Shown: one piece after another, positions 1-34,745 of the stretch
Layout: each line of letters opens with the position of its first letter
Position numbering within the stretch: position 1 is the stretch's first letter
Assembly: GCF_013343295.1 (NCBI RefSeq)
Contig: NZ_CP049074.1
Coordinates: 973,501-1,037,500, forward strand
Reading direction: 5' to 3'
Source: Metallosphaera tengchongensis
GTDB lineage: Archaea; Thermoproteota; Thermoprotei_A; Sulfolobales; Sulfolobaceae
Length of the DNA: 64,000 nt
Program-made: the position numbers and the translations under genes
Notes under the pieces: generated by a model
Told to the model about the DNA's origin: nothing
The model's input: only the letters and a program-made list of their open reading frames with translations
Database searches by the model: none

Positions 1-240
1 CTTGACCTATCTCCTCCTCGACTTGCTCAAGGGGAGATCCGCCGTTTCAACCCTCCAATGACGTCTCCCACGTCCCATCTCGTCACCGAGATTGAGACCA
101 GTGTTCATCTTCATTTCGCCAGTGGAGGGTATCGTTTCTGTGCGGTTGTCGTAGGGGCTACCCACGTCCCTCATGGGACTCCCCCTAGGCTAGAGGCTGG
201 AGTTTCCTCAGTTTCCCGTAACCCCCTGCTGGGCTCCCAA
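1..240 (-). ncRNA. rnpB: RNase P RNA, 5' part (truncated by window edge)
   Basis: This is the catalytic RNA of RNase P, which removes tRNA 5' leaders. On the minus strand the GC-rich segment carries GAGGAAACUCC (conserved region I), then CACAGAAACGAUACC, then GGUGACGAGAUGGGACGUGG and a GUUGAAACGG...GAGCAAG block. This order matches the P4/P9-P12 landmarks of the family (compare the bacterial GGUGAAA, GGUAAACUCC and GGAGCAAGGCC segments). The 3' part, with conserved region V, lies beyond base 1. The 5' end is approximate and abuts the stop codon of the upstream CBS gene on the same strand. Base composition is far richer in GC than the neighbouring genes. Two protein subunits are encoded at 42.3-43.3 kb. 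Confidence 0.85.
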
Positions 241-26926: not shown

Positions 26927-27002
<76 letters not shown>

Positions 27003-27118
27003 CCAAGTCAGTATCATGTCATACCTAACTTAAAAAATTGAGGTTTGCAAGCCGTAGTCAACAGTTTCCGTGAGACCATCATGTTTATATAATCTGGATT
27101 GTTGAGGACTTTATATAC

Positions 27119-27300
27119 CACAAGGGGTCTTGCCCTAGATGTGGGCCTGTATCCCGACAGGTCGGCAAGAGATGCGAAAAGTCGAAGATGCGCGTTCCCC
27201 CACCATCTAGGTGGGTCGGGGTTACCCCTTGGGGCGGAGGGATGAGAGCGAGTTCCCCGCTTGACCCCCGTGAAGCCAAAGGGCTGAGGGTTGATATCAA
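27119..27300 (+). ncRNA. Candidate structured non-coding RNA, family not recognised
   Basis: A strikingly GC-rich segment in AT-rich surroundings. Nested helices on the plus strand: AAGGGGT (27122-27128) with ACCCCTT (27224-27230); CCTAGATGTGGG (27134-27145) with 27199-27211, one bulged C; hairpin CCTGT/ACAGG (27146-27150, 27157-27161); TCGGC/GTCGA (27162-27166, 27181-27185) using a G-U pair; then a GCGG/CCGC arm and an AGCC/GGCT end hairpin. TATA-like boxes TTTATATAA (27083) and TTTATATACC (27110) precede it. It is not SRP, 5S or RNase P RNA by their hallmark motifs. Confidence 0.6.
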
Positions 27301-27302
27301 AC

Positions 27303-27327
27303 ATTATGAGATCCCATTATGAGATCC
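27303..27327. repeat. Short direct repeat ATTATGAGATCC, two copies
   Basis: Two 12-base copies (27303-27314 and 27316-27327) separated by one C, directly after the palindrome TTGATATCAA (27291-27300) that ends the candidate RNA. Possibly a processing or binding site; nothing more can be said. Confidence 0.6.
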
Positions 27328-27389
27328 GATGAAACTCAAGCCTTGTGTAGGTAAGGAGTAAAATTCTTTTATTATGCTCAGAGTCCCGT

Positions 27390-29324
27390 TTAAACTATCC
27401 TTATACTGTCAAGAATACCTGGGTCATAGATTGAAGATGTCCTTAAGCCTAGTCTTTCTTTCTCTCTATTGAAACTGATCCTCTTCTTGAACTCTCTGAT
27501 AGCTGTGGGCTCTCCGTGGTTCAGAAGAATGTTCTTCGGTTTGGGCGCTATATCCTCCAAGAACTTTAACAATTGTCTCTGATCCGAATGCCCAGAAAAG
27601 CCATCAATAGCTTTAACTTCCATGTTTACTTTGATATTGTCAATCCTCCCATCTCTCCCTATTATTTGAATTTCTCTAGCTCCGTCCCTTACCTTTCGGC
27701 CCAAGGTTCCTTCTGCTTGGTAACTCACAAAGATAATGCTATTTTTGCTATCTGGAGCTAGCTGTTTAAAGAACTCAACGGCAGGCCCTCCATTAAGCAT
27801 TCCAGAGGTAGCTAGAATCACTGAAGGCTCACCGCTTTCCGCTATATCATCCCTGTACCCTTCTATCCTCTTAAAGAATTCAGAGGTAAACGGATTTTCA
27901 TCTCTAAATAGGATGGAATCCCTTACTTCCTTTCCTAACCATTCAGGATACGCGGTATGAATTGCGGTGACCTCATCGAACAGTCCAGTAACGTAAACTG
28001 GAACCTCAGGTATTAGTTTCCTTTTCATTGCGTCATTTATCACCAGCATTATTTCTTGTCCCCTGCCAACAGCTAGTACTGGTATTAGCACCTTACCTCC
28101 GTTCCTTACTGTCTTATTTATTACATCCACCAAATCGCTTTCAGACTGCTCCCTATTTGTTTGAACTTGGGCTCCATATGTAGTTTCCATGATCAAAGTG
28201 TCAACTCTAGGGAACTCAGACACAGCTCTGTCCAGCAATCTAGTCCTGGCGTACTTGAAATCGCCGGTATAAACTAGGTTGTGAACACCTTCTCCTATAT
28301 GTAGATGAGCCATTGCAGAACCTATGATATGGCCAGCGTTGTAGAAAGTTAACCTAATGTCAGGAGCAATATCTGTCACCTCCTCATAGTCAAGAGTAAT
28401 GGTATGAAGAAGTTCCTTTCTCACCTCTTTCGCAGAATAGGGTAAGGGTCTTCCCTCTTTCTCAGCAACATCCAATAAGTCCAATTGCATTAAAGCCATT
28501 ATATCTCTTGTAGGTTGTGTGGTGTAAACTGGTCCTTCATATCCATACTTGAAAAGGAACGGAATCATTCCGCTGTGATCCAAATGGGCATGCGTTAATA
28601 CCACAGCGTCTACATCCTCAAGTCTAAGTTGGTCTATATCCAGCTTAGGAAACATCCTTTCTCCGAAATTCACGCTTGGATTTACCCCCACGTCCATGAG
28701 TATCCTACTTTCTGGAGTTTCTACTAGTACGGCAGATCTTCCTACTTCCTGAAACGCGCCTAAAGCTGTAATTCTAACATACCTATCTTTAAATAAAAGC
28801 TCTCTATGGATTCTCTCTCCGAAGGTTTTCAGGATCTTCGACCTATACTCAGTTTCGTTGTAAATATGAGTGAGTACTCCTTCAACTGTTCTAGATTTTA
28901 TTGGAGGTTCCCGTATAATTACAGGTCTCCAGTAAGTTTCCATGAAAATTTTTTGCTGGATTAGCCCTCTTTTTCCAATAACAAGACCGGGTTTCTTAGC
29001 CTTTATTAGAACTTCTCCCAACTCATCATCAAACTTAATGTCTGTTACTTGAGCCTCTGGAGGAACGGAGCTTTTTATTATCTCGATGGTTTCCTTTTCA
29101 TCCTTTCTCACGCTGCTGTCGGCCTTGATTACAATCCTCTTTTTTATTTCTTTCACTATTTTCTTTACTATATCCATTTTATCGTTCATAACCGAAGGGT
29201 TTTTTACATATACGGCTATCTCTGGCCCTTCAAATTCTATCCTAGTTATTCCGGCCTCTTTAGGTATTCCGTTGTATATTGATGATATTATACCTAGTCT
29301 AAAATTGGACACTCGTCTCACCAA
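27390..29324 (-). CDS. aCPSF1/FttA, KH-metallo-beta-lactamase-beta-CASP ribonuclease
   Basis: Archaeal homologue of CPSF73 that cleaves nascent RNA at U-rich 3' ends and terminates transcription. The 644-residue protein has two N-terminal KH-type domains (to about 150; [16 protein letters not shown]), the metallo-beta-lactamase core with HAHLDHSG near 245, a beta-CASP insert, and C-terminal motifs SGHSD and LNHGEP. All metal ligands appear present. Divergent from egsA with a 61-base gap. Confidence 0.96.
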
Positions 29325-31342: not shown

Positions 31343-31441
31343 TGCGGGGGGCGGGATTTGAACCCGCGCAGGACTACTCCAGTAGGGGTCTCACCAAGGG
31401 TCCTGAGCCTACCCCCTTTGACCATGCTCGGGCACCCCCGC
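31343..31441 (-). tRNA. tRNA-Leu (CAG) with intron
   Basis: Acceptor GCGGGGG pairs with CCCCCGC; the long variable arm is typical of Leu. Anticodon stem GTAGG/CCTAC is interrupted after CTCAGG by about 14 bases (ACCCTTGGTGAGAC), an intron at the canonical 37/38 position. Anticodon CAG. The 3' half is identical to tRNA-Leu(TAA) at 34646. Confidence 0.92.
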
Positions 31442-31504: not shown

Positions 31505-31614
31505 CGCCGGGGGCGGGATTTGAACCCGCGCGTCTCGGAGAGACAGTAGGTCGCACGCTTGCTTGCTGGAAAAGGTCTCGAGCCTACCCCCTTAGTCCAC
31601 TCGGGCACCCCGGC
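31505..31614 (-). tRNA. tRNA-Ser (CGA) with intron
   Basis: Acceptor GCCGGGG/CCCCGGC, discriminator G, long variable arm TGTCTCTCCGAGAC. Anticodon stem GTAGG/CCTAC; after CTCGAG an insert of about 25 bases interrupts the loop, an intron at position 37/38. Anticodon CGA. Confidence 0.92.

Positions 31615-34645: not shown

Positions 34646-34745
<100 letters not shown>

Follow-up and report, generated by a model that had tools for sequence, protein, structure and literature searches.

IS607 transposons, MITE-like derivatives of insertion sequences and omegaRNAs are each already known. In ISDra2, an IS200/IS605 element with a Y1 transposase and a TTGAT TAM, the 3' end of tnpB and the right end give rise to a reRNA whose final ~16 nt are copied from flanking DNA and direct TnpB to the donor site (PMC8612924); the structured 3' scaffold of this omegaRNA has a pseudoknot near its end (PMC10097598). 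RAGATH-18 RNAs, the reRNAs of bacterial IS607 TnpB, lie outside the tnpB coding sequence, and a possible kink-turn has been reported in them too (PMC11061315). The halobacterial sotRNA/omegaRNA families RF02656 and RF02657, already included in Rfam, are archaeal RNAs from the 3' ends of IS200/IS605 tnpB genes (PMC12558985). ISC1904 of Saccharolobus (Sulfolobus) solfataricus belongs to the IS607 family; it combines a tnpA serine transposase with tnpB in ~1.9 kb and lacks a flanking motif (PMC4058570, PMC6188088). The Sulfolobales also contain MITEs such as SMN1 and SM3A, short tnpA-less repeats with the ends of autonomous ISs (ISC1733 and ISC1058 supplying the transposases) that are presumably mobilised in trans; terminal inverted repeats are described for them, a guide RNA is not mentioned, and the described S. 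islandicus MITEs depend on other ISs (PMC3718332).

We analysed a 64,000-nt stretch of the Metallosphaera tengchongensis genome (hereafter the window), in which an earlier note had proposed an unrecognised, stand-alone stable-RNA gene at positions 27119-27300. The feature is in fact larger, a 294-bp insert at 27051-27344 on the plus strand, to which all coordinates below refer unless otherwise stated. Very probably it derives by internal deletion from an ISC1904-like transposon of the IS607 family, as a non-autonomous (MITE-like) copy that has kept its omegaRNA scaffold. The likeness to ISC1904 is one of description rather than of sequence; complete relatives of the window element agree with it in gene content, in their length of ~1.9 kb and in the absence of a flanking motif, while the window copy keeps both ends but lacks tnpA and retains very little of tnpB. 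As in ISDra2, the 3' end of tnpB and the right end provide a structured scaffold followed by transposon-flanking DNA (PMC8612924, PMC10097598), but the window element belongs to IS607, shows no TAM, has a kink-turn-like unit and is without tnpB. Like RAGATH-18 it is probably the guide RNA of an IS607 TnpB; its scaffold, unlike the bacterial one, lies almost wholly inside the tnpB frame. It matches neither RF02656 nor RF02657.

An insertion absent from this locus in three congeners, and a repeat dispersed through the genome

The insert is sited between the genes for tRNA-Val (GAC; 26928-27002) and aCPSF1 (27390-29324; 644 aa, named as in the earlier note), both on the minus strand. Their separation is 387 nt, which falls to 93 nt on subtraction of the 294 bp. 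In three congeners that keep both genes adjacent, and in which the element is absent from this site, the corresponding gap measures 91, 85 and 93 nt. The agreement in length identifies 27051-27344 as an insertion into an otherwise conserved gap. It occurs just past the TATA-like stretch upstream of tRNA-Val (CTTAAAAAATT), which is conserved and lies outside the element. In two other congeners (G001 and G002) tRNA-Val is not kept in its arrangement with aCPSF1. A search for plasmid or phage carriers of the window copy gave no match.

The GC-rich island on which the original proposal was based is real: GC content is 60% at 27119-27300, whereas it is 40% over the window, 27% in the intergenic part on the left and 38% at 27345-27389. 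All the sequence words quoted in that proposal are present at the locus. Its exclusion of SRP, 5S, RNase P and tRNA identities also stands, and no Rfam family matches 27119-27300 at its gathering score or with a meaningful E-value. At gathering and permissive thresholds Rfam searches yielded only chance-level matches besides tRNA, and neither RAGATH-18 nor any other Rfam family gave a covariance-model match at the gathering cut-off. The known RNA family ceN65 was rejected, its 17.5 bits against a cut-off of 48 representing chance.

Rather than a gene belonging to this locus, the feature is a single member of a transposon-derived repeat family scattered through the genome. A BLAST search of its own genome (2,176,897 bp) with 27070-27320 as query gave 41 matches, namely the window itself and copies of 68-93% identity, mostly 68-82%, while a covariance model built from relatives gave 57. 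At both ends the window copy agrees with a consensus from about 30 other copies. Across 32 junctions the 12 bases to the left of the left end are almost free of information (no more than 0.22 bit at each position): no target-site consensus or TAM-like motif is seen there, and the left boundary is consequently sharp. A TAM might overlap the crossover bases. The RNA model finds matches in 32 of 60 related genomes, most of them from the same family (Sulfolobaceae), and some of these hold many copies.

Genome G004 has 17 model matches, many nearly equal in score (e.g. C1:1353087-1353222), along with 12 tnpB genes (423-426 aa) whose 3' ends fall within the RNA match. Here the complete element has multiplied in a recent burst, whereas most copies in the window's genome lack tnpB.

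Descent from tnpA-tnpB elements and anatomy of the copy

Long copies of the repeat have open frames of ~430 and ~200 aa upstream of the RNA region and in the same orientation. In a complete copy from the same genome, the former is a guided TnpB (NF040570, E 8e-36) with Cas12f1-like TNB and OrfB domains and similarity to solved TnpB structures, and the latter is an IS607 transposase (NF033518, E 4.9e-60) with a resolvase domain, in agreement with the family pattern of a serine recombinase that has an N-terminal DNA-binding domain and is accompanied by TnpB. An IS200/IS605 parent, first considered, was rejected since the full copies carry this serine recombinase. The complete elements, of ~1.9 kb, start like GCCGTTG..AACAGTTTC and end with ATGAAACCCAAACCCC, as do the short copies, and the mini-element corresponds to the 3' end of these tnpA-tnpB elements. 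Lacking a tnpA of its own within its 294 bp, the window copy can only be an IS607 derivative and is not autonomous. It is short, has many dispersed copies, contains no complete transposase gene and has its parent in the same genome, all features of a MITE. No terminal inverted repeats are present between the left end GCCGTAGTCAAC and the right end ...AAACCCAAACCCC, so we call it MITE-like only; IS607 elements are without such repeats.

The left end (27051-27083; GCCGTAGTCAACAGTTTCCGTGAGACC...) is common to the complete tnpA-tnpB elements. It is followed by the TATA box of the tnpA promoter (27084-27091) and by a second TATA-like box (27110-27117). In 32 copies, among them both complete and mini ones, the former lies at an offset of 32-34 relative to the left end; the latter is shared by most copies in the length class of the window copy. 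These two TTTATATA boxes, at 27084 and 27110, are the upstream TATA-like elements that had been noticed earlier. In complete elements the tnpA start codon follows at an offset of ~64. The mini-copies keep the left end and TATA box and then, within a few dozen bases, enter the zinc-ribbon codons TCT TGC CCT AGA TGT. The distance of this zinc-ribbon/hairpin motif from the left end is 64-67, 79 or 82-92 nt, defining at least three length classes. In the window copy the motif forms the 5' scaffold hairpin (GGTCTTGCC / GGCAAGA; 27126-27170, codons S C P R C G), which, when its frame is read against intact TnpB, derives from the first half of the TnpB zinc ribbon. Archaeal transcripts usually start ~25 nt from the TATA box; on that spacing transcription from the tnpA promoter would begin at about 27112-27118, placing the 5' hairpin roughly at the expected start.

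The 3' omegaRNA scaffold occupies 27197-27344, matched over all 154 positions by model R1 (85.6 bits, E = 4e-23) in what is the sole meaningful match in the window. Comparison with other copies and model R1 assign 27288-27344 to the right-end hairpin region and right end. In this region a 13-bp stretch, TATGAGATCC, is tandemly duplicated (27305 and 27318), and the right tip, AAACTCAAGCCTT, has several substitutions relative to the consensus given above. Erosion of the tip and the duplication may mean that this particular copy is inactive. The host flank at 27345-27364 (GTGTAGGTAAGGAGTAAAAT) would occupy the guide position if the layout of the ISDra2 reRNA applies (PMC8612924).

The minus-strand frames were rightly regarded as artefacts. 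On the plus strand part of the tnpB reading frame survives (GSCPRCGPVSRQVGK...EAKGLRVDIKHYEIPL), with its stop at 27320-27322. Among complete copies (L050:6488-6637, L075:2434-2583 and others) the TnpB frame extends ~50 aa beyond the RuvC-III motif and its stop is only ~14 nt short of the right end; almost all of the omegaRNA scaffold is thus coding sequence as well. In a different arrangement, at G000:C1:480093-481262 (L051), an intact tnpA (205 aa) directly precedes a mini-copy with its own left end, giving two left ends and one right end; the tnpA may belong to a tnpA-only element that adjoins the mini-copy or has fused with it.

A conserved, covarying RNA fold

In keeping with the strand preferred in the earlier note, the plus-strand RNA folds better than shuffled sequences (z -2.54, 3 of 200 as good) and the minus strand does not (z -0.85, 35 of 200). 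This excess in single-sequence folding is modest, and covariation among copies is the real evidence. In 21 copies, mostly tnpB-type, a 40-pair structure has 94.3% of its cells paired, with 56 double-change cells against 21 in shuffles and a covariation of 0.282 against 0.182 (0/500). Sliding the partners by 1-3 columns reduces pairing to 31-61%, although, since the structure was drawn by hand from an overlapping set of copies, this control favours the drawn structure. The fold persists without tnpB: 31 distinct copies, almost all tnpB-less, yield 14 double-changed pairs against 7.4 in shuffles and a covariation of 0.170 against 0.146 (0/500), values from an alignment that was fitted to the model and of a kind that relatedness inflates. 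Pairing in this set, at 86.5%, is lower than among the mostly tnpB-type copies.

The best-supported parts are a helix 1 of variable length, a two-stem unit with GA/GA between its stems (helices 4 and 5 of A1) and the right-end stems, where helices 6 and 7 have one double-changed pair each. In the window copy helix 1 is short (CCCACC / GGTGGG; 27199-27215); in most relatives it is longer and covaries. The two-stem unit at 27239-27268, GGG-AU-GA-G-AGCG ... CGCU-U-GA-CCC, reads as a predicted kink-turn, so named from its sequence. Both of its stems, together with the right-end hairpin, are included in the minimum-energy fold of 27115-27344. The hairpin AGCC / GGCT (27274-27285) is an alternative to one of the right-end stems. 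A GGGU/ACCC pairing of the 3' tip back onto the scaffold is also predicted, but it is invariant among copies and so unproven.

The helices listed in the earlier note can be judged against this fold. AAGGGGT at 27122 with ACCCCTT at 27224, CCTGT at 27146 with ACAGG at 27157, and AGCC at 27274 with GGCT at 27282 were all found as quoted. The words of its 12-bp helix, CCTAGATGTGGG at 27134 and CCCACCATCTAGG at 27199, are likewise present, but their pairing is not favoured, the local CCCACC/GGTGGG hairpin, whose counterpart covaries in relatives, being predicted in its place. Similarly, TCGGC (27162) with GTCGA (27181) and GCGG (27234) with CCGC (27257) exist as words but fall outside the supported fold.

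Possible roles of the mini-elements

The RNA lies at the 3' end of tnpB and the right end, on the same strand, and ends at the element boundary. By this position, by its fold and by its parentage it is best read as the putative guide RNA (omegaRNA/reRNA) of an IS607 TnpB. An internal deletion has very probably eliminated tnpA and all but the 3' tip of tnpB, so that the left end, with the tnpA promoter, now adjoins this tip, which is the omegaRNA scaffold and continues into the right end. Mobilisation, past or present, would have been effected in trans by an IS607 serine transposase. From the left-end promoter a plausible product is an omegaRNA of ~230 nt, the last ~16-20 nt of which, from 27345 on, would be a host-derived guide. 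An intact TnpB encoded elsewhere in the genome could then load the RNA of the window copy and cut the matching empty site, and repair from the occupied copy would favour retention. In the window's genome about 50 RNA copies lack an intact tnpB, while just three tnpB genes, one of them at genome positions 2144320-2145621, and two tnpA genes are intact, so that both mobilisation and guiding in trans would be possible there.

Alternatives that deny the element its transposon character fare badly. A host non-coding RNA gene of unknown family, perhaps domesticated from a transposon, would be structured, GC-rich and preceded by promoter-like boxes, as is the case here, but the empty locus in three congeners rules out a host RNA conserved at this position, and dozens of dispersed copies with the same sharp ends in unrelated places leave the idea very improbable. 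Translation of the leftover C-terminal tnpB frame as a small protein is, if anything, even harder to credit. In the window copy the frame stays open over 71 codons ahead of the anchor and 11 beyond it, yet in around half of the other tnpB-less copies indels of lengths not divisible by three interrupt it after only a few codons, and the second half of the zinc ribbon and the RuvC-III Asp are missing. Since a Pfam search with the 65-aa remnant also found no match, a residual protein was rejected.

Two readings that accept the IS607 origin deserve greater weight. To the view that the copy is a dead relic, a MITE-like IS607 derivative with a merely inherited fold, unexpressed and unused, whose kind spread only through recognition of both ends by TnpA, we give about an even chance. 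The duplication and eroded right tip of the window copy and the reduced pairing in tnpB-less copies point this way, as do the copies without a close tnpB or tnpA in G010 (11), G009 (3) and G016 (3), which indicate that copies persist without a partner; against it, the compensatory changes in tnpB-less copies exceed those in shuffles and the promoter is retained at a constant place before the scaffold. More tentatively, the tnpB-less copies may be functional, each making an omegaRNA from the tnpA promoter with its own host-derived guide, so that the few intact TnpBs would draw in trans on about 50 dispersed guides, either for protecting or homing the mini-elements or for binding host sites. The promoter at its fixed distance and a scaffold hairpin that starts 64-92 nt from the left end in each of the length classes speak for the main reading, an IS607 derivative from which an omegaRNA could be made; the partnerless copies, the eroded tip and the lack of a visible TAM argue against a general role in trans. 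If it were true, the tnpB-less copies would amount to a scattered natural guide-RNA array in an archaeon.

The locus itself is ordinary and the family moderately interesting. A supposed orphan structured RNA gives way to a testable IS607-derived mini-element whose content would be hardly more than the guide RNA for an RNA-guided nuclease, and a covariance model for the Sulfolobaceae IS607 omegaRNA, of which Rfam has none, is now supplied. Genomes with dozens of copies and few tnpB genes offer natural material for studying action in trans by stand-alone omegaRNAs. Stand-alone omegaRNAs have been discussed for IscB; in the part of the literature covered here, we found no IS607-derived stand-alone omegaRNA or MITE family in Sulfolobales.

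Elsewhere in the window, an archaeal RNase P RNA is cut by the window edge at 1-238 (minus strand, 98.5 bits). Three Rfam tRNA matches of 44-46 bits, at 31343-31441, 31505-31614 and 34646-34745 (minus strand), were unreported by ARAGORN; at 99-110 nt each, they are probably intron-containing archaeal tRNA genes.
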